A stretch of 17,784 bases of DNA from an uncultured Sphingobacteriaceae bacterium (GTDB lineage Bacteria; Bacteroidota; Bacteroidia; Sphingobacteriales; Sphingobacteriaceae), in assembly GCA_946480915.1 (NCBI GenBank), contig CAMLLO010000061.1, positions 1 to 17,784 on the forward strand. The letters are read 5' to 3'. This document shows positions 1-17,784 of the stretch, piece by piece. Made by a program: the position numbers and the translations under genes. The notes under the pieces were generated by a model. The model saw only the letters and a list, made by a program, of their open reading frames with translations, had not been told where the DNA came from and searched no databases. Position 1 is the first letter of the stretch; the number at the start of each line of letters is the position of its first letter.

Positions 1-80
1 CCTCTGGTTCCCTTCTCCTCGAGGAGAAGGGTTAGGGATGAGGTGATGCGATAAGGAGTATCACCCAATTCATTCCTCGT

Positions 81-124
81 TTTTTCCGGCAAAGCGCATT
101 ACGATTGCCGATCGGATCGGCAAT
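81..124 (+). repeat. Direct repeat unit, copy 1
   Basis: The unit begins TTTTTCCGGCAAAGCGCATT and runs into the ATTGCCGATC inverted repeat. It recurs 137 bp downstream at 218-260. The first 33 bases are identical in the two copies; two bases then differ (GG here, CT in copy 2), after which ATCGGCA is shared again. In this copy the hairpin at 104-124 is perfect. Confidence 0.8.
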
Positions 125-217
125 GACGGAGCTCTTGGGATGACGATTGTCGTTTAACACCCCATCGCCGTCATTCCCGCGCAGGCGGGAATCCTAATGC
201 AGAGCACGTTCCTCTTC

Positions 218-260
218 TTTTTCCGGCAAAGCGCATTACGATTGCCGATCCTATCGGCAT
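218..260 (+). repeat. Direct repeat unit, copy 2
   Basis: Second copy of the unit at 81-124. The two-base change weakens the terminal hairpin, leaving GCCGAT/ATCGGC around a 3-nt loop (244-258). It ends only 13 bp before the stop codon of the minus-strand gene at 274-276. Confidence 0.8.
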
Positions 261-273
261 GAGTCCGCTCCGT

Positions 274-2976
274 CTACTCAACCTTATACCGGTAAACAGT
301 CCTTCCAATATGCCCCTCAGCATCAATTCCTTCAGCAATCACCCGGTAAGTTCCGCGGCCATCGGCATTGTAAAATTCAATTACAGATTTGCCGGTGGTT
401 TTGTCGGTTTTTACTTTAGGGTCCCAATGAATGGTAGTGCGAAGATCGATGCCTTTTATAGCTGCCGAAGGAGAATACTTTGGCGAGTAAAACTCTCGTG
501 CGATGGTATATCCCTGGGGTATAAACTTCACCTCACCGGGCTTTGGTAAGAGGTTGCGGATATCTTCCATCTTCATCTTAGGTTTTTTCTCAACCGCCTT
601 TCCGTTGATTACCAGGGCGCCATTGCTGTTGTAGGTGCGGTTTACTAGTCCCAGCTGATCTTTTAAGAAGATTTCAATGGATTCTATTTCGGTCGAATTT
701 ACAGTGTTCATAAAATTCGCATCCACCGGCATTCCATTATAAAATACCTGCATAGGGGTTTTGTTGCCTGTATTATAGTCTCTGCTAACATAAAAGTTCT
801 CATTCTCATACGTTACCCCGGTTAGCATTGATCGTACGCAAGTGAAAAAATTCGGACAGTTGGCAAAGCGGTCGCTTGTGATTAAATGATCGGGCCAGGC
901 ACTTAAACCGCTCAATGCCGGATAATCGGTATGACTTGGAACCTTTGTTTTTGCTGCGCTTTTAATTACAACCTCTTTCAATACCAGCGATCTTTTCAAA
1001 AGCTCTTTGTTGTTTTTCAGGTATTTGTTCATGGTGCTATCCAGATTCAGCTCTTGCGGCCATTTTATGGTACCTATACCCGGTTGGAAGGCAGTAGGAT
1101 CTACCGTAAGCATAGGGTTTTTATTGCTGTAATCTGCCGAAGTAACAATCACCTGGGATGAATCTGCAACTACTATATTCGGAAACTTAAAAACTCCCGA
1201 TCCATTTGTTGTCGCATAAGCTGTATAGTACTTGTCGGGTATTCTAAGCTTTACATTCGCCTTATTTAAAGGCATGCCGGTAGAATTTCGCAGAATACCT
1301 GTGATGTCGATTCCCTGTTCGGGCAAGAAAAATATCTGCGGATTTTTATCGGCAAGTATGTCCGAATACAAAAAGCGGCGGTAACCCTGCGTGAGCATTA
1401 ACACATCTAAATTGGCTTCCGTTTTTTCACTTACCTGGTTAAAATAATAGTTGGGCTTTTCTATATATCCTTTTAATTCAGACGAAAGCAATAGATTACT
1501 TAAAATGGTGGTTTCGGCATTATCATCAAAAGGCACCTTTGTTTCGTCGACCACCGAAACCGATAAATTTGCTTCGCCTGGTAACTTATTGTTCCTGGCT
1601 TCTATATTGAGTTTTACTTTTTGCCTTCTTCCATAAGTGGTTTTATCTGTTTTTAAGGAAAGGTTAAGCTCATCCGCGTGGCGAATAAAAACAAGCCGTT
1701 CGCTCAAGCCTTTTCCCTGGGCAGATAACAAAGATAATTGAACGATGCCGGTGGGAAATTTGTTTTTAGGGATGGATGTTGCAAACGCCTGTTTTGTTAG
1801 ATTTATTTTTGCGGCGTAGTAAACAATCTCGCCGGATTTGGCAATTAAATAAAAGCTTTTACCCTCGTTAGCTGAGAGAAAACTGCTATTGCATAAAAAT
1901 CGAAGGTTCAGGCTTTCTTGATTTGCACCATTGCTTACAGCCAGGGTAATGCCGCTGGCGGCCACATTTGGCAAAGGGTAGGTGCCGCTATAATTAAGCG
2001 GAGAAGTAATTTTGGCCACATACGTTTTTCCGGCTTCGGGCGCTAACACAAAAAGCCCCATGCCCAAATGCTGCGAACTGAAGTCAGTTACTAAGTTACC
2101 TTCATTATCTGTGATGGTACCTTTAATGTCAATGCCTAATCCATCAGCCTTTAAGGCTTTAAAAGCGATTTTTGCAGGAATCTCGCTAATAATTTCTCCA
2201 CCTTCCGGGAAAAATTGAAGATCTATTTTTTTATCAGCCGCTTTTAAGGGGAATGTGTTAGAAACTGTATTATCGGTTAATTCAATGGTAGTTACCAGTG
2301 ATAAACTGTTAGCTGCAATTGAAAGATCATCCGGTAGGTTTAGGCTAAAAATTCCATTTTGATCTGTGACTCCCTTTCCCTTACGTTGTTTATCACCTTC
2401 ATCAATTTTCCAGCTTATTTTTTTATTTGAATAGGCTGTGCCGTTAGGGTTTTTGTAAGCAATGCTTGCCGTGGTGCCGGTGGTATTGTGATTAAAGCTA
2501 ATGTGGGTGTTAACGTTGTTTTCGCCGTTGCCTATGTTAATGCTTTTGCTAAATAAATAATCAGGATCAAAATTTATCATCCACCGGGTATATGCCCGGA
2601 TTTGATAATTTCCTTGTTTGTATTTTTCGGCGCTAAGTGCAATATTTCCCCATGCCATACTATTGCTAACCGGCAGCTTCAGTGTTTGAACCAGGGAGTC
2701 GCGGCTGGTTAACACGTCGACATAAACAATTTTGCTAAGCGGCGAGGGGATGTGCAAGCCTGCGGTTACATAGCTCTTAAGCCAGATGGTATCGCCAACA
2801 GCATAATAAGGTTTATCAAAATGAACATGTACTTTTTCTTGCGGATACTTGTTGGCGAAGCTTTCAAGCTTGATGAGGATTTTGGTTAAACCGGTGGAGT
2901 CCTGTTCTTGCGAAAAAGCAGAAAAGTTAAACGTTATCAGCAGGGCTGCCAGAGAATAGATTCTAAAAAGCGTCAT
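274..2976 (-). CDS. Secreted MG2/carboxypeptidase-regulatory/TonB-plug-like protein
   Basis: A 900-residue exported protein of a type common in Bacteroidota; its function is not established. Residues 1-22 form a Sec signal peptide (hydrophobic LAALLITFNF, then FSAFSQ). Residues ~45-150 resemble the macroglobulin MG2 fold (VHFDKPYYAVGDTIWLKSYV region at 51-70). Beta-rich repeats follow, including QFFPEGGEI (254-262). A carboxypeptidase-regulatory-like domain covers ~554-620 (GIDITGILRNSTGMPLNKA). A TonB-receptor plug-like segment covers ~665-795 (MQVFYNGMPVD at 742-752, IESIEIF at 764-770). The tail (~825-900) contains FYSPKYS and the DLRTTIHW motif typical of this family. It has no 22-strand outer-membrane barrel, so it is not a complete TonB receptor. 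I infer a periplasmic or surface role, perhaps as a scaffold or in transport. The stop is TAG. It is transcribed divergently from pncB. Confidence 0.8.
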   Translation of the reverse strand: MTLFRIYSLAALLITFNFSAFSQEQDSTGLTKILIKLESFANKYPQEKVHVHFDKPYYAVGDTIWLKSYVTAGLHIPSPLSKIVYVDVLTSRDSLVQTLKLPVSNSMAWGNIALSAEKYKQGNYQIRAYTRWMINFDPDYLFSKSINIGNGENNVNTHISFNHNTTGTTASIAYKNPNGTAYSNKKISWKIDEGDKQRKGKGVTDQNGIFSLNLPDDLSIAANSLSLVTTIELTDNTVSNTFPLKAADKKIDLQFFPEGGEIISEIPAKIAFKALKADGLGIDIKGTITDNEGNLVTDFSSQHLGMGLFVLAPEAGKTYVAKITSPLNYSGTYPLPNVAASGITLAVSNGANQESLNLRFLCNSSFLSANEGKSFYLIAKSGEIVYYAAKINLTKQAFATSIPKNKFPTGIVQLSLLSAQGKGLSERLVFIRHADELNLSLKTDKTTYGRRQKVKLNIEARNNKLPGEANLSVSVVDETKVPFDDNAETTILSNLLLSSELKGYIEKPNYYFNQVSEKTEANLDVLMLTQGYRRFLYSDILADKNPQIFFLPEQGIDITGILRNSTGMPLNKANVKLRIPDKYYTAYATTNGSGVFKFPNIVVADSSQVIVTSADYSNKNPMLTVDPTAFQPGIGTIKWPQELNLDSTMNKYLKNNKELLKRSLVLKEVVIKSAAKTKVPSHTDYPALSGLSAWPDHLITSDRFANCPNFFTCVRSMLTGVTYENENFYVSRDYNTGNKTPMQVFYNGMPVDANFMNTVNSTEIESIEIFLKDQLGLVNRTYNSNGALVINGKAVEKKPKMKMEDIRNLLPKPGEVKFIPQGYTIAREFYSPKYSPSAAIKGIDLRTTIHWDPKVKTDKTTGKSVIEFYNADGRGTYRVIAEGIDAEGHIGRTVYRYKVE

Positions 2977-2997
2977 TAATTTCTGAGAATGAGACCA

Positions 2998-3005
2998 TAA
3001 ATGTA
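2998..3005 (-). promoter_or_regulatory. Candidate -7 box of the MG2/plug-like gene
   Basis: On the minus strand this reads TACATTTA, seven of eight positions of the Bacteroidota primary-sigma -7 consensus TAnnTTTG, 21 nt before the ATG at 2976. I see no convincing TTTG -33 element at the expected distance, so this is tentative. Confidence 0.25.
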
Positions 3006-3028
3006 TCCATTCTATCTGTTATTAGCAG

Positions 3029-3069
3029 AACTTGTGTGCTGAAATTTCCAACAAGTTTCTGAAATTTCC
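3029..3069. promoter_or_regulatory. Candidate operator: twin GAAATTTC palindromes
   Basis: In the 194-bp divergent region between the MG2/plug gene and pncB, CTGAAATTTCC occurs twice (3039-3049 and 3059-3069) with an exact 20-bp period, about two helical turns. The core GAAATTTC is itself palindromic. A 7-bp inverted repeat, AACTTGT (3029-3035) and ACAAGTT (3051-3057), encloses the first copy. The layout fits a regulator binding two sites on one DNA face. Which gene it would control, and by which protein, cannot be read from the sequence. Confidence 0.35.
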
Positions 3070-3170
3070 TGTATGTGATGCAAAGATCATTTCGTTTAGC
3101 CTTTTTTCTCATCCAAGGGTAAACCAGCAGAACGAAACGGTGTTTCTTTTAAAATGCCTTAGGTTTTGAT

Positions 3171-4352
3171 ATGATACAAGCTTTTTCGCCTCTTCCATCG
3201 CTGCTCGATAACGATTTTTATAAGTTTACCATGCAGCAAGGGGTTATTCGCTTATTTCCGGAGGCTAAAGCCCGGTACGAGTTTATTAATCGGGGTAAAC
3301 ATTCTTTTCCGCCCGGCTTTGCCGAGGCGCTCAGAAATGCTGTAGATCAAATGGCTTTACTGAAACTCAGCTCGGAAGAAAAGCTCTTTCTCAGTTCTTG
3401 CTGCCACTACCTTGACCCGGTTTATCTCGACTTTCTCGACGGTTACCGGTACAATCCCGACGAAGTAGAAATCATACAGCACGGCGATAAGTTAAAGATC
3501 AGGATTGAAGGCTTTTGGTACCGGACGATTTTATGGGAAGTGCCTTTAATGTCGCTGATCTGCGAATTGTATTATACGCACAATCATTCTGAGCGGATAA
3601 GCAATGAAGAAGTTAAAGAATGCAACAAGAAAAAGATTGAGAAATTCAAAAACTTAGGGGTTACCGTTGCCGAATTTGGAACCCGTCGCAGGTATTCATA
3701 CCAGGTACACCGCCAGGTGGTACAAGCCTTAAAACAATATGGAAATGGCTCGTTTATAGGTACCAGCAATGTACATATGGCTATGCTGCAACAAACCAAA
3801 CCCATCGGAACACATGCACACGAATGGTTTATGTTTCATGCGGCTTGTTATGGATTTAAAATGGCGAATGCCATGGGTTTAGAAAATTGGGTTAAGGTTT
3901 ATCGGGGCGATTTGGGGATTGCTTTATCAGACACGTATACAACTGAAGTGTTTTTCCGCCAGTTCGACAAGATGTATTCAAAGCTGTTCGACGGAGTAAG
4001 GCACGATAGTGGAGATCCGCTCGTGTTTGCAGATAATGTTATTTCGCACTACCAGAAAATGGGAATTAACCCAAAAACCAAAACGATTATCTTTTCTGAC
4101 GGACTCAACTATCAGAAAGTTGCCCGCATAGCAGAACATTGCAGGAAAAGAATTGGCATGTCTTTCGGTATTGGTACCAATTTAACTAACGATGTTGGCC
4201 CCGAGCCACTCAACATTGTAATAAAAATGACAGCCGCCCGGCCCCAGGAAGGCGACTGGACCGAAGTGGTAAAATTATCCGACGAGCGGGGTAAATATTC
4301 GGGCTCGGAGAGTATGATCAATTTGGCTAAAACGATTCTCAACGTAGACTAA
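3171..4352 (+). CDS. pncB: Nicotinate phosphoribosyltransferase
   Basis: This enzyme joins nicotinate to PRPP, with ATP hydrolysis, to give nicotinate mononucleotide, the first step of Preiss-Handler NAD salvage in the cytoplasm. The 393-residue length is normal for bacterial PncB. The N-terminus has LLDNDFYKFTMQQGVI (residues 11-26), the family signature for the first substrate-binding strand. EFGTRRRYS (168-176) supplies the conserved arginine cluster for phosphoribosyl binding. GTHAHEWF (213-220) contains the histidine (H217 by my alignment) that is phosphorylated in the Salmonella enzyme. GVRHDSGDP (275-283) and SFGIGTNLTND (331-341) are the C-terminal PRPP/phosphate-binding motifs. No residue looks missing. 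The ATG directly precedes the conserved start of the family. It appears monocistronic: 125 bp separate it from the Rsb operon. Confidence 0.96.
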   Translation: MIQAFSPLPSLLDNDFYKFTMQQGVIRLFPEAKARYEFINRGKHSFPPGFAEALRNAVDQMALLKLSSEEKLFLSSCCHYLDPVYLDFLDGYRYNPDEVEIIQHGDKLKIRIEGFWYRTILWEVPLMSLICELYYTHNHSERISNEEVKECNKKKIEKFKNLGVTVAEFGTRRRYSYQVHRQVVQALKQYGNGSFIGTSNVHMAMLQQTKPIGTHAHEWFMFHAACYGFKMANAMGLENWVKVYRGDLGIALSDTYTTEVFFRQFDKMYSKLFDGVRHDSGDPLVFADNVISHYQKMGINPKTKTIIFSDGLNYQKVARIAEHCRKRIGMSFGIGTNLTNDVGPEPLNIVIKMTAARPQEGDWTEVVKLSDERGKYSGSESMINLAKTILNVD

Positions 4353-4477
4353 CATCTTCGGCCCCGGGATTTATATTTTTCTCTTTACCTGCTTTCCAAG
4401 CTCCTAAGGCACTATCACCACAATAAAAAGAAATCCCCCCTTTTTAATGCGTATCATTACATACATTAAATAAAAAA

Positions 4478-5338
4478 ATGGAATATAATATCCCTAAGTT
4501 GTTACTAAAGAAGAAGAAGAATATTATTGATTTGTGGATTAAAAATCAACTTTCGGAAACTGATTTAAGAGAAGATTTGATATCGGATGATGAGCTGCGT
4601 CAGCAGTCTGAAGAGTTGTTAGAATCAATATTAAACAATCTTAACCAGGACAATATAGAGGATGTGTACTCTACCGATTTCGACGGTGTTACCGAGATTC
4701 TGTCGGGCATATCAATAACCCGCGCACGACAAGGTTTCAGCCCACGCGAAACATGTGCTTTTATTTTCGGATTAAAACAAGCCCTTTTACAATTATTGCA
4801 GCAGGAGATTAAGGATGATCAATCGACACTCTATGAGTCGACACTTAAAGTGAACCGATTGATGGATTACTTTTGCATGATTACTTTCGAAACCTTTATT
4901 AAAGGCCGTGAAGAGGTAATTATAAGACAAACAGATGAAATTGCGGAAATTTCGACGCCTGTAATTCGGGTATGGGATGGTATTTTGGTAATGCCGATCA
5001 TCGGAACGCTGGATAGTTCTCGTAACCAGGTTGTGATGGAAAATTTACTTCAGGAAATTGTAGAAACTGGTAGCAGTATTGCTATTCTTGACATATCAGG
5101 AGTGCCTGCTGTCGATTCGCTGGTAGCACAACATTTAATAAAAACAGTTAGCGCAACCCGTTTAATGGGTGCCGAATGTATTATTAGTGGAATAAGGCCT
5201 GAAATTGCTCAGACTATTGTGCATTTAGGTATTGATTTGTCAAATATAATCACTAAAGCCAGCCTTGCCAGTGCTTTAAAGTTCTCATTCCATGCACTTA
5301 AGCTGGAGGTTAAGAAAACGCATATAGTAAATGGATAA
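4478..5338 (+). CDS. RsbR-type stressosome co-antagonist (RsbRD_N + STAS)
   Basis: This is a 286-residue stressosome scaffold/sensor subunit. Residues ~10-145 are all-alpha and match the RsbRD N-terminal sensor type, not the globin-like domain of Bacillus RsbRA. Residues ~160-280 are a STAS domain with the RsbR signatures VMPIIGTLDS, ILDISGVPAVDS and GIRPEIAQTIVHLGID. In Bacillus RsbRA, RsbT phosphorylates Thr171 and Thr205; by my remembered alignment the matching residues here are S180 and S214. It heads a five-gene operon, and its stop overlaps the next start by 8 bp. There is no transmembrane segment, so it should be cytosolic. The 125-bp leader contains TATATTTT (4372-4379), an imperfect -7-like box; no clear promoter was identified. 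The family call is firm; the signal sensed is unknown. Confidence 0.9.
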   Translation: MEYNIPKLLLKKKKNIIDLWIKNQLSETDLREDLISDDELRQQSEELLESILNNLNQDNIEDVYSTDFDGVTEILSGISITRARQGFSPRETCAFIFGLKQALLQLLQQEIKDDQSTLYESTLKVNRLMDYFCMITFETFIKGREEVIIRQTDEIAEISTPVIRVWDGILVMPIIGTLDSSRNQVVMENLLQEIVETGSSIAILDISGVPAVDSLVAQHLIKTVSATRLMGAECIISGIRPEIAQTIVHLGIDLSNIITKASLASALKFSFHALKLEVKKTHIVNG

Positions 5339-5738
5339 AATTGCTATTCTTAAAATGGGGCCGTTTTTGTTGGTTACAATTCAGGTCGACCTATATGATC
5401 GCCTTGCTTTGAGCCTCGAAGCTGATCTGGTTCAAATGGTGAATAAAACCAGCGCCAAAGGTGTGCTTATTGATATTTCTGCCGTTACAATTGTAGATTC
5501 ATTCATGGGTCGGATATTTGGCAATATTGCCAGCATGTGCAAAATTCTCGATGCAGAAACTGTAGTGGTGGGCATGCAGCCGGCAGTTGCTATTACCTTA
5601 ATTGAGCTTGGCTTGCCTTTAACAGGCGTGCATACGGCGCTAGACGTTGAAAAGGGAATGAAGTTATTATATTCCAAGGTTGAGATTGATAAAGACGAGA
5701 ATGATGATCTGGAGGATGATGATAACAGCACTATCTAA
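5331..5738 (+). CDS. rsbS: RsbS-type STAS antagonist
   Basis: A single-domain STAS protein of 135 residues, the partner that, with RsbR, holds the RsbT kinase in the stressosome. The core (1-115) contains LIDISAVTIVDS, where S57 sits at the position of the RsbT phosphorylation site (Ser59) of Bacillus RsbS. VVVGMQPAVAITLIELGLPL is the conserved RsbS second half. It begins inside the rsbR stop region (ATGGATAA), implying translational coupling. Residues 117-135 form a strongly acidic tail (DKDENDDLEDDD) absent from the ~121-residue Bacillus protein as I remember it; the DNA for this tail also carries the start region of the next gene. Confidence 0.93.
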   Translation: MDKIAILKMGPFLLVTIQVDLYDRLALSLEADLVQMVNKTSAKGVLIDISAVTIVDSFMGRIFGNIASMCKILDAETVVVGMQPAVAITLIELGLPLTGVHTALDVEKGMKLLYSKVEIDKDENDDLEDDDNSTI

Positions 5739-6132
5739 AGACCTTATGCCCATACTCTGGGACAAGGATGTAGTGCCTTTTAGAAACCGCGTAAAAGAAT
5801 ACGCGATTAAAATTAAAATGAGCCTTCTGAATCAAACTAAGCTGATTACTGCTGCCAGTGAGATGGTGCGTAATATGCTTAAGTATGCCAATGGCGGTCA
5901 GGCGCTTATTGAAATTGTAGTTAAAGGGGCCGAGAAAGGCGTGAGATTAACTTTTCAGGATAATGGCCCCGGAATAGCAGACATACCACTGGCCATGAAA
6001 GATGGATACTCTACAGGCAAAAGTCTTGGTTTGGGTTTGCCGGGAACGAAACGTCTTGTAAATGAATTTAACATAAGCAGCGTACCAGGTAAAGGCACCA
6101 CTGTGGTGCTAATTAAATGGGCTAATGGATAA
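5716..6132 (+). CDS. rsbT: RsbT-type serine/threonine switch kinase
   Basis: A small GHKL (HATPase_c_2) protein kinase. In the Bacillus pathway it phosphorylates RsbS and RsbR and, once released, activates a downstream effector. All ATP-binding boxes are present: N-box SEMVRN (E49, N53 in a 138-residue product), G1 box DNGPGI (82-87) and G2 box GLGLPGTKRL (104-113). The ending KGTTVVLIKWANG matches the end of Bacillus RsbT. The reading frame is open from TTG at 5680, but that would give an extra basic leader inside rsbS. I prefer ATG 5716, or ATG 5719, which lies 3 nt after a GGAGG at 5711-5715. Either gives about 137 residues, close to Bacillus RsbT (133). It overlaps rsbS by about 20 nt and the next gene by 8 bp. 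Confidence 0.92.
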   Translation: MMITALSKDLMPILWDKDVVPFRNRVKEYAIKIKMSLLNQTKLITAASEMVRNMLKYANGGQALIEIVVKGAEKGVRLTFQDNGPGIADIPLAMKDGYSTGKSLGLGLPGTKRLVNEFNISSVPGKGTTVVLIKWANG

Positions 6133-7132
6133 TTCAACATACAGTAGCTATCTGGTAGAGGATAGAAGTTACTTTTCTTTATTAAAAAAGGAGGTTAACA
6201 AAAAGGCTGTTCAAGCAGGTTTTGGCTCGAAGAAGTTAGATAAGCTAGATATTATTGTTGCCGAAATGACCTCAAATCTGCTGAAATATGCAGAAAAAGG
6301 CGAGCTTCTTGTTTGTGTAGCAGGCGAGGAGGAAAACGAATATATAGAGCTAATTGCCATGGATAATGGCCCTGGTATAGCCAACCCTGAAAGAATGATG
6401 CTCGACGGCGTTTCGACAGCAAGCACAAGCGGGAGTGGCCTGGGTAGCATAAAAAGACTTTCCGACTTTTTTGAGGTTTATAGCATTCAGGGCTGGGGCA
6501 CCATTATGTTGTGCCGCTTGTTTAAACATGCTAAACCAAAAGCTGCCCATAAAAACGTTGTTGTACGATCCATAACCGTAGCTAAGCCTGGCGAAGAGGT
6601 AAGCGGCGACGGAGGGGTGTGTTTAATTAGTCCGGATTATTTAAAATTATTAGTGGCCGATGGTCTCGGTCACGGTGTAGAAGCCCATCAGGCTGTCGTT
6701 GAAGCTTCTGCGGCGTTTAAAATTTGCGTAGATCATGATCCTGTGGAAATTATCAAGTTTATTCACGAATCGATTAAAAAAACCCGGGGCGCAGTAGGAA
6801 CAGTGGTTGTGTTTGACTTCAAAAATAAAGTTTGGAAAATAGCCGGGGTAGGTAATATCGCAACCAATATGATTAATTATCAGAAGGTGAAGAGTGTGAT
6901 GTCCTTCAACGGTATCATAGGTCATAATATACCTGCGTATATGAAAACTCAGGAGATCCCGGTAGATGAATTTCAAAGAATCATCCTCTGCTCTGACGGT
7001 TTGAAAACACGATGGGATACCAATAAATATGAAGGTATTAATAAATACGATCTGTCAATTCTTGCCGCAGCTTTATATAAAGATCAGGCAAAGAAAACGG
7101 ATGATATGTCGGTAGTGGTTTGCAGAGCTTAA
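6125..7132 (+). CDS. Fusion of RsbT-like ATPase with RsbX/SpoIIE-type phosphatase
   Basis: This 335-residue protein joins two opposing activities. Residues ~1-135 are an anti-sigma/RsbT-type GHKL ATPase: N-box VAEMTSN (E47, N51), G1 box MDNGPGIA (79-86) and G2 box GSGLGSIKRL (103-112). Residues ~145-334 are a PP2C/SpoIIE phosphatase of RsbX size. Its metal-binding acidic residues appear intact: SGDGG (D162), VADGLGHG (D179), CSDGL (D291) and KKTDDMS (D326/D327). In Bacillus, RsbX removes phosphate from RsbS-P and RsbR-P to reset the stressosome, so the phosphatase half probably does this here. The kinase half could give a second RsbS/RsbR kinase, or could simply dock the phosphatase on the complex. 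The start overlaps the rsbT stop as ATGGATAA. Domain calls are secure; the substrate is inferred from context. Confidence 0.92.
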   Translation: MDNSTYSSYLVEDRSYFSLLKKEVNKKAVQAGFGSKKLDKLDIIVAEMTSNLLKYAEKGELLVCVAGEEENEYIELIAMDNGPGIANPERMMLDGVSTASTSGSGLGSIKRLSDFFEVYSIQGWGTIMLCRLFKHAKPKAAHKNVVVRSITVAKPGEEVSGDGGVCLISPDYLKLLVADGLGHGVEAHQAVVEASAAFKICVDHDPVEIIKFIHESIKKTRGAVGTVVVFDFKNKVWKIAGVGNIATNMINYQKVKSVMSFNGIIGHNIPAYMKTQEIPVDEFQRIILCSDGLKTRWDTNKYEGINKYDLSILAAALYKDQAKKTDDMSVVVCRA

Positions 7133-7136
7133 TGAT

Positions 7137-8330
7137 ATGGTTGAGCTAATTAAGTTGACATTAGAAAATGAGATGGACCTGGTTCTGGCTCAAAAGAAGG
7201 CTTCAAAACTTTCCGAAGTTTTAAAATTAAGCCTTTCAACGCAGGCAACGTTTGCTACCGCCATAGCCGAACTGTGTCGGGTGGTTATTGATCATACAGA
7301 TACGGGCGTGCTTTTACTGGGGCTTTCAAATGAAAAAAATCGCTATTCTCTAAGGGGAACAATAGAATACAAAGAAATTGAAGGAATAAAAATTGCCGAA
7401 GAAAGTTATTATTACGCCAAAAAACTCATACCCTTTTTTAATATTTCTTCAGATAATGAAACAGCTGTATTAGAGATTAGTATCAATCTTCCGCGGTCGG
7501 CCAACTTAAATCCCGAACGGGTGAGCATGCTTAAAAATCTGTTTGAACAGGAACCGCCTATTTCTGCTTATGAAGAGATTAAGAAAAAGAATCTCGAGTT
7601 GTTCTATATCGCCGAAGATAAGGATGAACAGTTAAGGCGATCAAAATATATCGATGAGAAACGAAGCGAATTTATCTCCATTGCAAGTCATGAGTTAAAA
7701 ACGCCTATAACCATTATAAAAGCATATACCCAACTCGCTCTTTCTGGAAAAGAAGAATGCAGCGAACATATGAAAGATTTTCTGAAAAAGATTGATGCAC
7801 AATCTACCAAGTTAACCAATCTGGTACAGCAGCTGCTGGATACATCTAAAATTGAAAATGGCAAGTTAGAGTACAAGTATGAGGAAGTTGATTTTAATGC
7901 ATTCATTGAGGAAACGTCTTTTCTCATCACACATTTATTACCCCATCATACGTTAGTGTTTGATCTGGGTGTAAACGCTAAGGTAAAACTCGATAGAGAG
8001 AGAATGGATCAGGTATTTACCAATCTTATAAGCAATGCCGGGAAATATTCAAGAGCTGGCAGTCAGGTTTCTCTCAAAACATCTGTTAATGATCGTGGTA
8101 TTTTAACCGTATCGGTTAGTGATGAAGGTATTGGTATGTCGGAAGATAGTATTGAAAAGATATTTCAAAAGTTCCACCGCGATAAGCAAGTGATAAATGG
8201 CTATTCGGGATTAGGTATGGGGCTTTATATAGCTTCGGTTATTATAAACGACCATGGCGGGAAAATCTGGGTTGAAAGCATTAAGAACGAAGGCTCTACT
8301 TTTTTCTTTTCTTTACCGTGCATAGCCTAA
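7137..8330 (+). CDS. Soluble histidine kinase with degenerate RsbT-like N-terminal domain
   Basis: A 397-residue cytosolic sensor kinase with no transmembrane segment and no PAS or GAF domain. The C-terminal half is standard: HisKA phosphoacceptor SHELKTP (H185), N-box DQVFTNLISNAGKYS (291-305), G1 DEGIGM (329-334), F box IFQKFHR and G2 GYSGLGMGL (355-363). Residues ~145-175 are helical and probably coiled coil. Residues ~1-120 are unusual. TAIAELCRVVIDHTDTG (41-57) lines up with the TAISELARNI helix of RsbT, but the N-box Asn is V49 and no DxGxG or GLGL box follows, so this part probably cannot bind ATP. It starts 4 nt after the previous stop and is clearly co-transcribed with the Rsb genes. 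I infer that it is the output of the module. No response regulator is adjacent. Confidence 0.92.
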   Translation: MVELIKLTLENEMDLVLAQKKASKLSEVLKLSLSTQATFATAIAELCRVVIDHTDTGVLLLGLSNEKNRYSLRGTIEYKEIEGIKIAEESYYYAKKLIPFFNISSDNETAVLEISINLPRSANLNPERVSMLKNLFEQEPPISAYEEIKKKNLELFYIAEDKDEQLRRSKYIDEKRSEFISIASHELKTPITIIKAYTQLALSGKEECSEHMKDFLKKIDAQSTKLTNLVQQLLDTSKIENGKLEYKYEEVDFNAFIEETSFLITHLLPHHTLVFDLGVNAKVKLDRERMDQVFTNLISNAGKYSRAGSQVSLKTSVNDRGILTVSVSDEGIGMSEDSIEKIFQKFHRDKQVINGYSGLGMGLYIASVIINDHGGKIWVESIKNEGSTFFFSLPCIA

Positions 8331-8365
8331 ATACCTTAGTCTCATTCCAGAGAATAAGATATTAC

Positions 8366-10123
8366 TTACTGAAGCCGTTCAGTTTTTTTAACAATATCCC
8401 TGATAATATCATCTAATTCTTTGGCAGAGTCGTTCAAATGAGGGAGTAGTTCTTTAATAATGTCTTCATCGGGATCCCTGGTGCCCATCAGATAGGATAT
8501 GCCCATAATGCGCGATAAGGGAGCTCGCACCAAATGAGATTGTATCCATGAAATTTGATGAAAGCGTTGGTTTTGCTCTTCAATCGCCTGGATATGATTT
8601 ACCCTTTCGGTGATATCCTGCATGCATCCAATTATTCGTACAGGTTTTTTTGATTTATATATCAGAAAGCCCCGGTCAAGTGCAACTTTATAGGTGCCGT
8701 CTGCACAACGAAAACGATACTCGTCCTGCCATCTGGTTTTGTTGTTCGTCATCACCAGATTTATTCCAGCTTTAACACGCTCAACATCATCCGGGTGAAC
8801 CATATTATACCACCAGTCTATTGAGCTACCAGCTCTTTTGTGCCCAAAAACAGCTTGTAAGCCTTTGCTCCACTTAATCTTATTGGTCAATAGGTCCCAG
8901 TCGTAAATAGCGTCGCTGGTTGCCTTCGAAACGATATTATATCGCTCTATACCTTCTCTTATTTTTATATCGTTAGTTATTTCCAGGGTTACATCTCTTG
9001 AGTTGGTTACAATACCACCAACAGCCGGATCATCGGTCATATCCGTAACGATGGTTTCTATCCATCGGAATTTATTTTTTGTATCCTTAAAGCGAAATGG
9101 ACAAATTTTAGTGCTGTGTACCGATTTCAATTGCCGGAATTGATCCTGCACTCTGTCTTTATCATCTGCATGGATAAAATCGTACATGTTTTTTCCGATG
9201 AAATATTCCGCTTGTATCCCGAACACCTTTTCACAGGCGGGACTTATATAATTAAAATTACCCTCATCATCAAGTATGCTTATCAAGTCCGAACCATTCT
9301 GTACAAGCGCTTTAAAGCGCTGCTCGCTTGCAAGTAAAGCCAGCTCGGCTATTAGTTTTTCTGTAATATCTACCGCCACCACAAGGCGGACGTTTTTATT
9401 GTCGGATAAGATGGAATTGCTTTCAATATCAACGAAGATTTGTTCACCGTTTTTCTTTAGGTGCTTTACAGAACTTCGGTTGAAAAATCCTTCTTGTACG
9501 TTATTAACAAGTATATCACGAAGCGCTGCGATTTCTTCTTTTGGCCTGATATCTTCTATTGTCATAGAAAGAAACTCATCTTCACTATAGCCATAATGAT
9601 GTACAGCGGCTCTATTAACGGCGAGAAACCGAAGATCTCCGGTGTCATATACCCACATAGGGAGCGGGCTCAAATTAAAAAGACTTTGATACTTTTTTCT
9701 TTCTAAAGCAAGTTGATTAACCTGATCTGTGATATCTACAGGGTTATGGATAATGAATCGCACATTACCCTGCTTATCCAGAACCGGATAGGTGTCCCAA
9801 TCCCAGTAACGTACCTCGAAACATCCCGGAGCAGTTTGAACATCATATCTCTGGTTTCTTACTTTATGTGCTTTTTTTAAGATTGAAGCATGTTCCAACG
9901 AAGTTTTCACAACCTCTCCACTCTGAGATGCGGTATCATCGCGATTTTCTATAAATGCTTCAAAAATTCCTTTCCCTATAATATCACTTCTGGATGCACC
10001 CACTTCACGAATAAAAGTCTCGTTAACTTCGGCAACTGTATATCGGGGTGCATCAGGATACAGGATGAGGCAAGAAGTAGGGGAGGCATTAACGATGGAT
10101 AAGATATCTTCTAGTGACGGCAT
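8366..10123 (-). CDS. Four-PAS protein with orphan HisKA-like segment, no ATPase
   Basis: A 585-residue soluble protein with no membrane segment. Four PAS-type domains lie at ~1-135, ~142-258, ~265-383 and ~390-508; PAC-type endings such as VDITDQ, VDITEK, RDVTLE and QDITER mark their boundaries. The last ~60 residues contain SWIQSHLVRAPLSRIMG (525-541) with H530 at the phosphoacceptor position, then a helix ending in LDDIIRDIVKKTE. The protein stops there: no N, G1, F or G2 box follows. It may therefore accept phosphate from another kinase, or be a docking module, but it cannot autophosphorylate. I recall similar ATPase-less SHxVRAPLxRIMG proteins as frequent in Bacteroidota. It converges on the Rsb histidine kinase gene with 35 bp between stops, which suggests but does not prove a link. 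The stop is TAA. Confidence 0.88.
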   Translation of the reverse strand: MPSLEDILSIVNASPTSCLILYPDAPRYTVAEVNETFIREVGASRSDIIGKGIFEAFIENRDDTASQSGEVVKTSLEHASILKKAHKVRNQRYDVQTAPGCFEVRYWDWDTYPVLDKQGNVRFIIHNPVDITDQVNQLALERKKYQSLFNLSPLPMWVYDTGDLRFLAVNRAAVHHYGYSEDEFLSMTIEDIRPKEEIAALRDILVNNVQEGFFNRSSVKHLKKNGEQIFVDIESNSILSDNKNVRLVVAVDITEKLIAELALLASEQRFKALVQNGSDLISILDDEGNFNYISPACEKVFGIQAEYFIGKNMYDFIHADDKDRVQDQFRQLKSVHSTKICPFRFKDTKNKFRWIETIVTDMTDDPAVGGIVTNSRDVTLEITNDIKIREGIERYNIVSKATSDAIYDWDLLTNKIKWSKGLQAVFGHKRAGSSIDWWYNMVHPDDVERVKAGINLVMTNNKTRWQDEYRFRCADGTYKVALDRGFLIYKSKKPVRIIGCMQDITERVNHIQAIEEQNQRFHQISWIQSHLVRAPLSRIMGISYLMGTRDPDEDIIKELLPHLNDSAKELDDIIRDIVKKTERLQ

Positions 10124-10459
10124 CAGGTTTATAAAATTGAATTTATTAAGAGTTTATAATTAGAACTATTCCTTTCCCCACGACTCTTGATATTTTAAAT
10201 TTTAAATGGAGGCTTTTTTGCAAATATGGTTTCTTCTACTGAGAAAAACGGTTTAGGTTACTTAAAACTTTAAATATTTCTTTTTAATGTGGATCGTCAA
10301 GCTTAAATGGCTGCCGGGGCGAGATAATGATTTTTAATTAAACTGATCTGCGTTATTCTGTTCTTCACATTTTGTCGTTGTATGAGGGGGGAAACGCTGG
10401 CATGAGCTGGGTTGATACGTACATTTGGGGTTAAAAGATTAGGTTTCTTATATTGCATT
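10124..10459. other. Divergent AT-rich intergenic region
   Basis: These 336 bp separate the PAS gene (minus) from the nitrilase gene (plus). I see no convincing gene. The region is AT-rich, with poly-A/T tracts around 10185-10290. It holds one copy of AAGCTTAAAT (10299-10308) and a perfect -7-type box at 10420-10427 that serves the nitrilase gene. I could not identify a promoter for the PAS gene with confidence. Confidence 0.6.
10420..10427 (+). promoter_or_regulatory. -7 promoter box of the nitrilase-family gene
   Basis: TACATTTG is a perfect match to the Bacteroidota -7 consensus TAnnTTTG and lies 33 nt upstream of ATG 10460. The -33 position (around 10397) carries only CTGG, a weak match to TTTG. 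A start of transcription a few bases after 10427 would exclude the possible upstream TTG start at 10412, and so supports ATG 10460. Confidence 0.5.
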
Positions 10460-11248
10460 ATGAAAATAGCAATAGCCTCTCCACCTTTTCCGAGATCAAT
10501 ACCTGATGGCTTATACTGGCTTGAAAAATTAGTGAAAGATGCGGCAAAGGAAGAGGCCGAAATTATCTGTTTTCCCGAATCTTATATTCCCGGTTATCCC
10601 GGGATGGAATACACTGCGGAAGAGCGCTCGCCTGAAAGATTACAATCTGCGTTAGCTAGCGTATGTGAAATTGCATCCGAAAATAAAATAGCGATCATCA
10701 TACCGATGGATTGGCATCTTTCGGGGGGAATTACGAATCTGGCGCATGTGATATCACGTACAGGAAAGGTATTGGGGTATCAAACTAAAAATCAGTTAGA
10801 CCCTACAGAAGATGACATCTGGATTGCAGGTACTGAAAGAAGTATATTCGAGGTGAATGGCATAAGGTTCGGAATCACTATATGTCATGAAGGTTTTCGT
10901 TATCCTGAATCGGTACGATGGGCTGCTAAAAATGGCGCTCATATTGTATTTCATCCACATCTGGCAGGAAGTAATATAGCCGGTCCGAAACTTACAGAAT
11001 GGGGACATAAGGAAAATCCGTATTACGAAAAAGCCATGATGATGAGAGCACTGGAAAATACCATTTATTTTGCAAGTTCAAATTACTGTTCCCTTTACCC
11101 CGAATCTGCAAGCGCCATAATCAGTCCGGACGGTTCATGTCTGAGGCATGAAGTTTATGGAAGGACGGGCGTCATCGTTGCAGATGTTGATCCCTCACTG
11201 GCAACCGGACTGCTGGCAAAGAGATTTAAGAGTGAGTTATATTCTTAA
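10460..11248 (+). CDS. Nitrilase-superfamily carbon-nitrogen hydrolase
   Basis: A 262-residue cytosolic amidase or nitrilase-type enzyme of the CN_hydrolase fold. The Glu-Lys-Cys catalytic triad can be seen: E40 in CFPESYIPGYPG, K110 in YQTKNQLDP and C142 in GITICHEGFRYPE. The strand ending (FASSNYC, then IISPDGS) is typical of the family. The substrate is unknown: candidates are small amides, carbamoylated amines or nitriles, and no pathway gene adjoins it. The reading frame extends back to a TTG at 10412, adding 16 residues, but the sequence from ATG 10460 (MKIAIASPPF) begins with the first strand of the fold, and the promoter box overlaps the longer version. It converges on the DUF1905 gene with 23 bp between stops. 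Confidence 0.88.
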   Translation: MKIAIASPPFPRSIPDGLYWLEKLVKDAAKEEAEIICFPESYIPGYPGMEYTAEERSPERLQSALASVCEIASENKIAIIIPMDWHLSGGITNLAHVISRTGKVLGYQTKNQLDPTEDDIWIAGTERSIFEVNGIRFGITICHEGFRYPESVRWAAKNGAHIVFHPHLAGSNIAGPKLTEWGHKENPYYEKAMMMRALENTIYFASSNYCSLYPESASAIISPDGSCLRHEVYGRTGVIVADVDPSLATGLLAKRFKSELYS

Positions 11249-11271
11249 AATTAGAGATTAAGATCATGAAT

Positions 11272-11763
11272 TTAAGGCTTATCTCTTCCTACAAATCGTC
11301 CTTTTCCCTGCAGAAAATCAATTGCCCTGTTAATATTGCGGACAATACTTTCATCTGTTTTCAGAGAAGAAATGTATCTGACGATTTCGTGCTTCTTTGA
11401 TTTTGATAAGTTGTCGAACACGGTTTTGGCATCTGGATTTAGTTTAAGTGCTTCCACCAATTTGGGATGTGGCTCAATAGTTCGGTCGGCGGAGTCAAAC
11501 TCGACCGACACCTGAATGATTTCTCCAATTCTTTTGGGTGAATTTTCAAGCATCGTGGTATTTATGTACAATCTCCACGAACCCTGGAATTTTACTAAGG
11601 TCTGTTTGTATTCCTTTCCATTTACTTCGCCTTTAATCGGAATATGTCCTTTGAATTTACCTGAACTTGTAAAAATAGTAAGGAGTATTTCCTCGGGGAC
11701 AAGGACATAGGGGTTAATTCCTATAATCTCGATTTTAGCTTTGAATTTATTGGCGCTTGTCAT
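11272..11763 (-). CDS. DUF1905 / YdeI-OmdA-like protein
   Basis: A 163-residue cytosolic protein. Residues ~5-93 match the DUF1905 beta-barrel-like fold (KFKAKIEIIG, then GHIPIKGEVNG and LYINTTML, ending in IIQVSVEFD). Residues ~95-163 match the YdeI/OmpD-associated C-terminal type: a small helical segment with LVEALKLNPDAKTVFDNLS and SIVRNINRAIDFL. Some members have been named bacteriocin-protection proteins, but the biochemical function is not established and I do not assign one. It appears to be a single gene. Its upstream region carries a ~31-bp element also found upstream of the GH105 gene. Confidence 0.8.
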   Translation of the reverse strand: MTSANKFKAKIEIIGINPYVLVPEEILLTIFTSSGKFKGHIPIKGEVNGKEYKQTLVKFQGSWRLYINTTMLENSPKRIGEIIQVSVEFDSADRTIEPHPKLVEALKLNPDAKTVFDNLSKSKKHEIVRYISSLKTDESIVRNINRAIDFLQGKGRFVGRDKP

Positions 11764-11815
11764 TGTTTCTTTATCCCTGCTCGGATGGTAGCCATTCCAT
11801 ACCTATAAGGATGCA

Positions 11816-11847
11816 CTAATTAACGTAAATTCCAGTAAATTTTACCG
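11816..11847. promoter_or_regulatory. Duplicated cis-element, copy A
   Basis: An AT-rich 32-bp segment that starts CTAATTAACGTAAATTC and ends AAATTTTACCG. It aligns with copy B at 13160-13190 with 27 identities over 31 positions and one gap. It lies about 53 nt upstream of the DUF1905 start codon on the minus strand. The halves GTAAATT and AATTTTAC form an imperfect dyad, as in an operator. AAGCTTAAAT follows at 11850-11859. Confidence 0.5.
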
Positions 11848-11909
11848 GGAAGCTTAAATAGCAACAGCACACTTATGCAGCATCAAGGTACCCCGGGAAA
11901 AAAATAGCT

Positions 11910-13139
11910 TTATCTTGTCGCCTTTTCAAGTTTTAATATTTCTACCCCTGCATCAAGCAGCGGACCGGTTCCATGTTTTTCGTTTAACCCAACCGGACGA
12001 TTGTAATAAAATGGAAGATTGTCCTGAATACCAGTTCCAACACAAATGTCTTTAAGCTGACCCAGTTCATTAAGCTTATTCTTTTTTAACCCTTCCCAAC
12101 CTGTTTTGGCGATTGATGCATAGCGTTTATCTATCCAGCCCTGGTTTACGGCATGAGCGGTGCCATATACAAACATGGCGCTGCACGACGATTCTGTGTA
12201 CGAATCCTCCTTATCGAGTAACTGGTGCCATAAACCCTCGGCGCCCTGGTAATGCGCCAGGCCCAGAATCTGGCGCTCGAGTAATTTTATCAGGTTTTTC
12301 TTTTCAGGATGATTATCAGGAAGGACATCCAGCAGATGAACCGTTGACAGCATAATCCAGCCGTTGCAGCGCCCCCAATGTGCAACACCGTTTCGTTTCA
12401 GATCGCTGTAATAAGTATGCCAGTACAGTTGCTTGTCAGCATCCCATAAGTATTTATTAAAGTTTTTAACCTGCTTAATAGCATCATCTGTATATTTTTT
12501 CTGACCCGTTAGCGTACCCATCCGGGCCAGGAAGGGAACACTCATATACAAATCATCAGCCCATACGCTCATTTTATGAGGAAAAGCTCTGACAAAAGTT
12601 CCGTCTTCCAGGCGAGGTCTATCCTCTGTAAGGTGTTTAGCCGCTTTTTCTAGATAGGCTTTGTATTCAGGCCGTTTATTGTGCTTATATACCTCGATTA
12701 TGCTCGCACTCATGGCGCCAAAATCATCAAGCTCTTCCATGGTGAAAAACTCTCCATATGGATAGGTATAATGTTTTACATCATGTTTGAACCGTTTTTC
12801 GAATAGTTGATAATTGTCAAAGCCGAAAGCTACATGCCGGGCCGCGTAATCAACATATTTCTGATCATTTAAGTAATTCCCGAGGTTTATCATCGCTATG
12901 TTGAGAACGCCATGCGTATAATGCCAGCCGGTATATGGACTCGCATATTTTACCTTTACATTTTCAGGGATGTTTTGAGATGATTTGTAAAACTGCTTAT
13001 TCTCAACTCCTTCAAATCCTAATACGGTCTCTTTTATGATTTGGTCGGCGATTTTCCTGACTATTTCTTCGTTCGACTGAGCCTTAATAATAGCAGAACA
13101 AAGAAGGAACAGGCAGAGGCTTGTAAGTTTTCTATACAT
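11910..13139 (-). CDS. Glycoside hydrolase family 105/88-type unsaturated glycuronyl hydrolase
   Basis: A 409-residue exported enzyme. It probably removes the unsaturated uronic acid left at the end of oligosaccharides by polysaccharide lyases; rhamnogalacturonan-derived oligosaccharides are the usual GH105 substrate. Residues 1-21 are a signal peptide (LCLFLLCSAIIKAQ). The (alpha/alpha)6 toroid covers the rest. ELDDFGAM (136-143) and WADDLYMSVPFLARM (193-207) carry the aspartates that align with the two catalytic Asp of YteR (D139 and D195 by my alignment). HWGRCNGW (254-261) is the family GRxNGW motif, with Cys where Gly or Ala is more familiar. KHGTGPLLDAGVEI is the usual C-terminal motif. 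It is divergent from the GH95 gene, which suggests shared use on one plant polysaccharide. No SusC/SusD pair lies nearby. Confidence 0.88.
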   Translation of the reverse strand: MYRKLTSLCLFLLCSAIIKAQSNEEIVRKIADQIIKETVLGFEGVENKQFYKSSQNIPENVKVKYASPYTGWHYTHGVLNIAMINLGNYLNDQKYVDYAARHVAFGFDNYQLFEKRFKHDVKHYTYPYGEFFTMEELDDFGAMSASIIEVYKHNKRPEYKAYLEKAAKHLTEDRPRLEDGTFVRAFPHKMSVWADDLYMSVPFLARMGTLTGQKKYTDDAIKQVKNFNKYLWDADKQLYWHTYYSDLKRNGVAHWGRCNGWIMLSTVHLLDVLPDNHPEKKNLIKLLERQILGLAHYQGAEGLWHQLLDKEDSYTESSCSAMFVYGTAHAVNQGWIDKRYASIAKTGWEGLKKNKLNELGQLKDICVGTGIQDNLPFYYNRPVGLNEKHGTGPLLDAGVEILKLEKATR

Positions 13140-13159
13140 AAGCTTAAATTGGATAGGCC

Positions 13160-13190
13160 CTAATTAAGTAAATTCTAATAGATTTTATCG
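13160..13190. promoter_or_regulatory. Duplicated cis-element, copy B
   Basis: A 31-bp partner of copy A (11816-11847): it starts CTAATTAAGTAAATTC and ends AGATTTTATCG. Relative to A it lacks one C and has four substitutions, all transitions. It lies 21-51 nt upstream of the GH105 start codon on the minus strand, overlapping where the core promoter should be, so it could be either a promoter or an operator. Confidence 0.5.
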
Positions 13191-13408
13191 AGCCATGACT
13201 GGTATCTATAAAAATGTTACAATTTGAATGTTAATGCTGTTCTATGAAAATACTTTTCAAAAAATGAACATGAGGGGAATCTGTTAGCTATAGGGCTTTA
13301 TACGAAGCATTCTAAGTCTAGAAAAGGGGCATGCTGACAAATTCTGTATTTTCCTTTGATACAATGTAGATTCAAAGCGGCCCCTTAACAGAATAGAATA
13401 TTTTATCT

Positions 13409-13416
13409 TACTTTTG
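13409..13416 (+). promoter_or_regulatory. Candidate -7 box for the GH95 gene
   Basis: TACTTTTG matches the Bacteroidota -7 consensus TAnnTTTG at every fixed position. The -33 region lacks a clear TTTG, and the box is 220 nt before the ATG, so it may be a chance match or imply a long 5' leader. Confidence 0.3.
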
Positions 13417-13636
13417 ACATCGTAACAATTATACGCTATAAAATAACCTGAAATTCCTGTTTAAAAATGTACTCATTTATTACATGGAACCAGAGTGCCA
13501 ACGTTTGCATTTAATAAATATCAATTCGCTTTGCGAAGGTAATTTTACCCATCATTGGCGTTTTGCTCCGGGGATATTGATAAGCGCAGAATACATGGAT
13601 TAAGATAAACACTTCAGAATAATAAAATATATCAAC

Positions 13637-16120: not shown

Positions 16121-16176
16121 TCGCCCGAATAGAGGCGAAATAAAGTATAAGCAGCTTTCTGTTAGACTTGATAGTA

Positions 16177-16222
16177 AAAGGTTATTTCCAGGCTTTTGAT
16201 TGCAAGCCTGGAAATAACCTTT
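16177..16222. terminator. Bidirectional hairpin terminator
   Basis: A perfect 19-bp stem (16177-16195 pairing with 16204-16222) with an 8-nt loop. The arms run AAAGGTTATTTCCAGGCTT and its exact complement. It lies between the convergent GH95 and DUF3570 genes. Each arm ends in AAA/TTT, so either strand gives a stem followed by a short T-rich stretch (TTTAATTCT on plus, TTTACTAT on minus). It should stop transcription from both sides. Confidence 0.75.
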
Positions 16223-16263
16223 AATTCTGATATAGTGAATTGAAATTCTTCAACAAACCAAGG

Positions 16264-17451: not shown

Positions 17452-17463
17452 AATACGTAGAAT

Positions 17464-17691
17464 TTAGTTACAACCACATCCACCGCCACTTTTGCCGCCA
17501 TTTGCTCCCGACGCACCTTCCCGGTACAATTCAAAGTTCTGTTCAAACTTTTGAACCTTGCGCGATGAAAGTTCCATTTCAGAATCGTTTAACTGGGCCT
17601 TTTGGTAAGGTTTAACGCTGCTACATGAGGCAAGTCCTGCACATGCTATCGCAGCTAATAAAATTGATTTAAGGAAGGTTGGCGTTTTCAT
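17464..17691 (-). CDS. DUF4266 small lipoprotein with Gly/Cys tail
   Basis: A 75-residue predicted lipoprotein. The lipobox is GLASC, with C23 as the lipidated residue. The mature part has CSSVKPYQKAQLNDSEM (23-39), the DUF4266 signature, a helical middle, and a Gly-rich tail from 58 ending in GGGCGCN (69-75), whose two cysteines (C72, C74) could bind metal, form a disulfide or be modified. Just before the tail, SGAN (61-64) resembles the SGAT core of ApbE flavinylation sites, with Asn replacing the acceptor Thr. It starts 2 nt after the stop of a probable ApbE gene and precedes the DUF3570 gene by 12 bp, so the three form one operon. The function is not established. Confidence 0.85.
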   Translation of the reverse strand: MKTPTFLKSILLAAIACAGLASCSSVKPYQKAQLNDSEMELSSRKVQKFEQNFELYREGASGANGGKSGGGCGCN

Positions 17692-17693
17692 AG

Positions 17694-17784
17694 TTATTTG
17701 ATTTTTATATTCTTTGAGGTGTACAGGTGATCATTCTCATCTATAATAATGCATTCAACGTTTTTAATCTGGTCAATTAAGTTT
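17694..17784 (-). CDS. apbE: C-terminal end of a probable FAD:protein FMN transferase (ApbE)
   Basis: A reading frame enters from the right edge on the minus strand and ends at TAA (17694-17696). The last 29 residues contain LIDQIKNVECIIIDENDHLY and end SKNIKIK. A hydrophobic strand after a KNVE turn, followed by a short exit with SKN, is what I expect at the end of ApbE proteins, and the DUF4266/DUF3570 neighbours support it. ApbE attaches FMN covalently to Thr in extracytoplasmic redox proteins. Only the tail can be seen, so the assignment rests on a short match and on context. Confidence 0.5.
   Translation of the reverse strand, partial: NLIDQIKNVECIIIDENDHLYTSKNIKIK

Follow-up and report, generated by a model that had tools for sequence, protein, structure and literature searches.

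An RsbT-derived domain without ATP-binding motifs on the output histidine kinase of a Bacteroidota stressosome operon

In the described stressosomes, the switch kinase RsbT docks on the core of the complex and is freed after stress; it can then activate RsbU, whose linker it orders so that a coiled coil forms (PMC12143880, PMC9237108). RsbU_N is the known RsbT-binding domain, and kinases carrying it are described from stressosome operons of Proteobacteria (PMC12143880). For clusters with a globin-type RsbR, most downstream proteins are described as being without RsbU_N, and for Vibrio vulnificus an interaction of VvRsbT with VvD1 gave no positive result (PMC9237108). The outputs described in the literature searched are RsbU_N outputs and two-component outputs, and how Gram-negative stressosomes signal to outputs without RsbU_N is the question addressed here, on the basis of a 17,784-nucleotide stretch of DNA from an uncultured Sphingobacteriaceae bacterium (GenBank CAMLLO010000061.1, positions 1 to 17,784; hereafter the window). 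The window contains a compact five-gene operon on the + strand, encoding RsbR, RsbS, RsbT, an RsbX-type phosphatase and a histidine kinase, and the N-terminal domain of this kinase is a derivative of RsbT that has lost its ATP-binding motifs.

The kinase shares with the RsbU_N outputs (Bacillus subtilis RsbU, Moorella MtG and proteobacterial RsbU_N histidine kinases) the gene position behind rsbRST(X) and the layout of N-terminal module, coiled linker and output enzyme (PMC12143880, PMC9237108), but its module is an RsbT derivative and not RsbU_N. VvD1 is likewise a two-component output behind a minimal Gram-negative rsbRSTX cluster, with its stressosome link left unexplained; it differs, by description only, in that the available text mentions no RsbT-like domain in it (PMC9237108). 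No RsbT-like domain on a histidine kinase was found described in the parts of the stressosome literature searched; the Pane-Farre reviews of 2005 and 2017 may hold one. The component parts are of known kinds, and their combination and the ATP-dead version appear new to us.

The N-terminal domain of the kinase

The elements of the N-terminal part of the kinase are as follows.
7137..7490, + strand: decayed RsbT-like domain (K_N), residues 1–118, about 118 amino acids (aa)
7257..7286, + strand: equivalent of the N-box, TAIAELCRVV (residues 41–50), with Glu45 and Arg48 retained and Asn replaced by Val49 (81-domain alignment)
7374..7397, + strand: site without G1 box and ATP lid, residues 80–87, between strand 69–79 and helix 88–97 (model secondary structure and RsbT alignment)
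7512..7664, + strand: conserved linker, residues 126–176, with the EPPISAYEEIKKKN motif; helices 126–138 and 144–203 are predicted

A preliminary description, made from the letters of this DNA, had placed TAIAELCRVV at residues 41–50, with valine instead of the N-box asparagine, and had seen neither a DxGxG nor a GLGL box after it; both observations hold for the open reading frame 7137–8330 (397 aa). Residues 1–118 contain no Asn, G1 or G2 box and no ATP lid. Neither G1 nor G2 occurs in any of the 153 proteins of this type that were listed, many of which differ little from one another and two of which are the window's own protein or almost the same as it. The Asn motif is present in 78; the search for window-type homologues listed the best 120 of 1207, again many near-identical, and the motif counts apply to those. 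In an alignment of 81 kinase N-domains, including that of the window, Glu45 is conserved in 80 and Arg48 in all, and Asn is found at position 49 in 10, none of them among the 65 short kinases and all among the 16 longer ones (>500 aa), 13 of which also have Asp at the position of the G1 Asp. Since about half of the listed proteins retain the Asn motif and the longer kinases keep more, the loss of ATP motifs looks stepwise, with the branch of the window far along. From this loss, no Ser/Thr kinase activity on RsbS or RsbR is predicted for the domain.

Ancestry from RsbT, also proposed in the preliminary description, was borne out by comparison of sequence profiles. With hhalign, the 81 kinase N-domains (72 after redundancy filtering) matched 78 operon RsbTs at 97.0% (E 8.6e-11, 107 columns), the reference being the operon's own RsbT rather than that of Bacillus; the controls, namely the kinase's own ATPase end, RsbS, the STAS part of RsbR and the phosphatase part of RsbX, reached at most 0.4%. 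For a domain of this origin, the missing motifs fit the further claim that ATP binding was lost. Single-sequence Pfam and NCBIfam scans gave no reliable match in residues 1–158, and a search of the N-domain profile against PDB sequences returned chance matches only (best E 0.53); because these methods are blind to the link with RsbT, profile–profile comparison or fold is needed to detect it. A WIV_dom match (E 0.15) in residues 1–158 was treated as noise, as was a DS1_2_antiphage hit in NCBIfam (19.6 bits, where the cut-off is 315; residues 16–103 of translated 7137–7610), which is probably a distant resemblance or chance.

The N-domain is predicted to adopt the HATPase_c_2/anti-sigma kinase type of fold, with RsbW, UsfX and SpoIIAB closest to the predicted fold, in agreement with the earlier supposition that the fold outlived ATP binding. 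These anti-sigma kinases act on sigma factors as stand-alone proteins and possess an ATP site, whereas the N-domain of the window kinase is ATP-dead and part of a fusion. With RsbT it shares ancestry, fold, the Glu45 and Arg48 of the N-box helix and an operon place beside rsbR and rsbS, but it differs in the loss of Asn, G1, G2 and ATP lid and in the fusion. The full-length monomer model (predicted local distance difference test, pLDDT, 83.6; predicted template modelling score, pTM, 0.52) has a helix, residues 144–203, that begins in the conserved linker and continues without a break as the HisKA helix carrying His185, with block pLDDT of about 66–86 there and about 66–89 in the linker region. 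According to the model, therefore, a change in the N-domain can travel through the linker helix to the kinase core.

Origin and distribution of the fusion

Complete RsbT domains fused to histidine kinases were found at four loci. In L111 (genome G195), rsbRSTX and a two-receiver kinase precede a protein in which a complete RsbT domain, with Asn as well as DEGPG and GMGIG, is joined to HisKA and HATPase_c; L128 (G562) likewise has one kinase gene between RsbX and the intact fusion, while in L134 and L135 (G670 and G820) the intact fusion directly follows RsbX. The Asn, G1 and G2 motifs are all present in these four fusions and absent in 10 decayed relatives from the same sample. A protein search from the G195 fusion yielded 219 proteins, some with names of Acidobacteriota; among the best 120 listed, many of them near-identical, 116 match all three motif patterns, three lack G2 and one lacks G1. 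When the linker was included, the window-type domain matched the intact fusions at 99.4% in hhalign (E 4.6e-22, 173 columns). The window kinase thus combines, in one protein, an RsbT domain, the conserved linker, HisKA and HATPase_c, and belongs to the ATP-dead branch of this fusion family. The intact RsbT-HisKA-HATPase(-REC) fusions (PF13581+PF00512+PF02518) have the same architecture and a homologous linker, and their four locus members also stand behind rsbRSTX; the difference lies in the ATP motifs, kept in nearly all of them and absent in the N-domain of the window kinase. The extra kinase genes between RsbX and the intact fusion lie at 6687–8279 in L111 (two receiver domains, HisKA and HATPase_c) and 6720–8351 in L128, and their products may be phosphorelay partners.

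On a tree of 67 domains, the decayed domains form a single clade (100/100) whose neighbours are intact fusions, including those of L134 and L135. The notion of an RsbT paralogue was thereby refined: the domain is RsbT-derived, but its nearest kin are the intact fusions and not the operon's own RsbT. The RsbTs of the window's cluster type form a clade (100/98), as do the RsbX N-domains (100/88), and both have the same internal order, with L111 and L128 outermost, then L134 and L135, then the window's group, although the pairing of L111 with L128 is weak in the RsbX part (92/29). We read this as an operon that was probably inherited as one unit, with the fused RsbT losing its ATP site within it; since the tree is unrooted, the direction of loss rests on intact motifs being the ancestral state. 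Descent of the kinase domain from the N-terminal domain of RsbX was considered and rejected, since hhalign gave 40.4% for it against 97.0% for RsbT and the tree separates the two. On the tree, the RsbX N-domains fall with RsbTs from other clusters (96/83) and apart from the RsbT encoded beside them.

The ratio of nonsynonymous to synonymous substitution rates (dN/dS) of the N-domain was 0.02–0.17 in the seven of 12 genome pairs with usable dS; in the remaining five, dS in the domain was saturated (four pairs, both window pairs among them) or, at 0.01, too small for a ratio (one pair). These ratios indicate that the N-domain is under purifying selection. The word "decayed" used in the preliminary description therefore fits the ATP motifs, which are gone, but not the domain as a whole, and a freely decaying relic was rejected.

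Two output arrangements were observed among clusters located through RsbT. Such clusters were found in 13 of 296 genomes of a phylum sample and in 10 of 395 and 22 of 294 genomes of class samples, giving 38 clusters in 37 different genomes; the search profile was built from window-type clusters, so distant RsbTs are under-sampled, and a partial match (G707:C410) was left out of all counts. The output is a kinase with an RsbT-like domain in 14 clusters (four intact, 10 decayed; 12 directly after RsbX, two after one other kinase gene), an RsbU_N gene in 21, and neither in three (L129, L151 and L152). L152 has a SpoIIE-HATPase_c_2 protein (6391–8061, - strand) in place of a kinase. Pfam detected RsbU_N in all 21 alternative outputs, with 19 scores reaching the cut-off and those of L118 and L142 slightly short of it; 19 of the 21 have HisKA_3 and HATPase_c in the same frame, no kinase domain shows in the L136 frame, and L146 has RsbU_N in a frame of its own ahead of the kinase frame. 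Among the RsbU_N clusters, RsbR and RsbS were not seen beside RsbT in three (L122, L148 and L150), and RsbX was not seen in five (L122, L140, L144, L148 and L150), which are five of the 24 clusters outside the RsbT-like type.

An RsbT-like kinase domain and RsbU_N were together in none of the 38 clusters, and RsbX carries an RsbT-like N-domain in all 14 clusters with an RsbT-like-domain kinase versus none of the 19 others having RsbX near RsbT. Groups of these clusters are related by descent, so they are not 38 independent cases; nevertheless, G195, G670 and G820 share a class sample with 17 of the 20 RsbU_N genomes, and the contrast between the two arrangements therefore appears within one class. 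A second wiring is thus visible in genomes, in which an RsbT derivative is built into the output kinase, in intact and dead versions, together with a matching RsbX domain.

Among 80 loci found through the kinase domain, the order R-S-T-X-kinase is present in 75 and three are cut by contig ends. The other two, L044 and L054, have no rsbRSTX neighbours; for L054, the draft genome G007 carries the RSTX genes on a separate small contig (L123), and in L044 (5546–6760) a kinase with a pseudo-RsbT domain stands with no rsbRSTX beside it. Within one family of 151 genomes, the kinase domain was detected in 29 and RsbT in the same 29; comparison of the two tables by eye gave each of the 31 places a single partner, always on the same strand of the same contig, with a start-to-start distance of about 1.4 kb (1.3 kb for one partial match). 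The connection to the stressosome made in the preliminary description is thus supported by context, since RsbT accompanies the domain in every family genome that has it, and the domain occupies, on the output kinase, the place held by RsbU_N in other clusters.

Candidate role and alternatives

We consider it somewhat better than evenly probable that a pseudo-RsbT, ATP-dead and maintained by selection, docks its histidine kinase on the STAS core of the stressosome. The present analysis supplies what this docking model builds on: descent from RsbT, loss of the ATP motifs, a predicted fold, the link to the operon and purifying selection. In the model, an RsbT copy would have been fused to a histidine kinase, later lost ATP binding and been kept by selection. 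Most likely, the pseudo-RsbT would then dock the kinase on the core (RsbS and/or RsbR) at sites also used by RsbT, in competition with it; under stress, catalytic RsbT would phosphorylate the core, and this would release the docked kinase or rearrange its linker helix, switching histidine kinase activity in one direction or the other. RsbX, via its own RsbT-like domain, would dock on the same core and reset it. The stress sensor may in this way hold and release its output kinase directly through an inactive RsbT copy, and, if so, the coupling of a megadalton sensor to its two-component output would rely on a pseudo-enzyme. A more general picture, to which we give slightly less than even weight, is that RsbT-like domains serve as exchangeable stressosome plugs (free kinase, RsbX targeting and ATP-dead targeting of an output kinase), with the kinase held directly and no RsbU_N receptor involved.

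Several observations weigh against docking. The decayed domains hang on a long branch (1.97 changes per column), which can distort their placement on the tree. Position 19 is Arg in 100% of the aligned intact fusions, but in the decayed domains it is most often His, Tyr or Gln; by gapless alignment with the RsbW sequence, we take this position to be RsbW Arg23, which contacts RsbV. The decayed domain keeps two of the five RsbW contacts mapped in this way (Ser and Glu), although RsbT itself keeps two or three of the same five, so the mapping is of limited use. Loss of the ATP lid also takes away surface close to the STAS partner. Conservation is highest in the patch of residues 9–21 (97–100% at positions 9, 11–15 and 17), which overlaps both the STAS-facing helix and the surface of GHKL dimers. 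No RsbT match was found at E 1e-15 in the draft genome G006, which carries the L044 kinase, and inherited linkage alone would also give adjacency and co-occurrence. As for the retained Glu45, we take it, with support for SpoIIAB, to be the equivalent of the RsbW Glu at the STAS interface. That RsbW Glu touches the STAS serine (PMC7340262).

Because position 19 has changed and the conserved patch is also the dimer surface of RsbW, two further explanations have to be weighed. In the first, the main rival, which we regard as rather unlikely, the N-domain receives free RsbT or acts as a dimer partner of the GHKL type, and the stressosome never holds the kinase; in the free-RsbT version, released RsbT would pair through helix 1 and strand 1, or bind the conserved linker as it does that of RsbU, and turn the kinase on. 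RsbW dimerises via α1 and β1 (PMC7340262), which is the patch most conserved in the kinase N-domain; RsbT acts on the linker of RsbU via a coiled coil (PMC12143880), and the linker of the window kinase is conserved and helical; for other clusters, trans action of RsbT on RsbU_N kinases is expected. On the other hand, the RsbT part of the intact fusions is complete, which suits binding to STAS better than a role as receptor of RsbT; a domain of this kind is also present on RsbX, even though RsbX acts on the STAS core; and Pfam found no RsbU_N (PF08673) in the window kinase at E ≤ 1.

The second explanation, clearly improbable in our view, makes the N-domain a mere structural leftover of the fusion that nucleates a dimer or coiled coil, with the kinase sensing something else and rsbRSTX adjacency being inherited linkage. 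The loss of the ATP motifs agrees with it, as do the requirement of histidine kinase dimers for an N-terminal organising element, the orphan copy without detectable RsbT (L044 in G006) and the copy apart from its RSTX genes in a draft genome (L054 in G007), but the co-occurrence in 29 of 29 genomes and adjacency at 31 of 31 places, the strong purifying selection on the N-domain and the mutual exclusion of RsbT-like domain and RsbU_N across the 38 clusters argue against it. Finally, a chance or generic GHKL likeness to RsbT, which would agree with the silence of the Pfam, NCBIfam and PDB-sequence searches, is in practice refuted and has next to no probability, given the hhalign values of 97.0% and 99.4% against controls that include a generic GHKL domain, the fold ranking predicted with RsbW, UsfX and SpoIIAB first, and the Asn kept by 78 of the 153 listed relatives.

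The operon and neighbouring observations

The genes of the operon, with their Pfam matches, are as follows.
4478..5338, + strand: RsbR-type co-antagonist (RsbRD_N 91.4 bits, STAS 57.3 bits)
5331..5738, + strand: RsbS, single STAS domain (STAS 32.3 bits)
5719..6132, + strand: RsbT switch kinase with intact ATP motifs (HATPase_c 51.0 bits)
6125..7132, + strand: RsbX-type phosphatase with an N-terminal RsbT-like domain (residues 1 to about 133), ATP motifs intact (HATPase_c_2 33.7 bits, SpoIIE 37.9 bits)
7137..8330, + strand: output histidine kinase, 397 aa (HisKA 58.8 bits, residues 176–242; HATPase_c 86.8 bits, residues 286–394)

The adjacent RsbR, RsbS, RsbT and RsbX genes identify an RsbRSTX stressosome cluster by Pfam, and the kinase gene starts 4 bases past the stop codon of the phosphatase gene. 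The start codon of RsbT was taken at 5719 (the open reading frame list has TTG at 5680). Aligned operon RsbTs have the N-box Asn in 77 of 78 sequences (one gap) and the G1 Asp and both G1 Gly in all 78; the N-box Asn is likewise present in all 77 aligned RsbX N-domains. Both HisKA and HATPase_c of the window kinase exceed the Pfam cut-offs, and its core is complete with intact boxes, H185, N296, N300, G331, G333, G358, G360 and G362 being invariant in a 20-sequence alignment. RsbU, RsbV, RsbW and a response regulator are absent from the five operon genes, the scan of the window having covered these and the PAS gene that faces the kinase gene. The PAS gene (8366–10123, - strand) encodes a 585-aa PAS-repeat protein in which the Pfam scan found no ATPase domain and, at the C-terminus, a weak HisKA match (15.2 bits).

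One of the 31 paired places in the family has a broken RsbT: in the second stressosome copy of G880 (L153, 6178–6610, - strand), RsbT is split into two overlapping fragments (88 and 70 aa), and the R, S, X and kinase frames are open. At L121, a free-standing 137-aa protein (1719–2132) matches the pseudo-RsbT profile (residues 12–89, E 2e-6); it lies on the opposite strand about 4 kb from an RsbU_N-type cluster and is possibly a stand-alone pseudo-RsbT.
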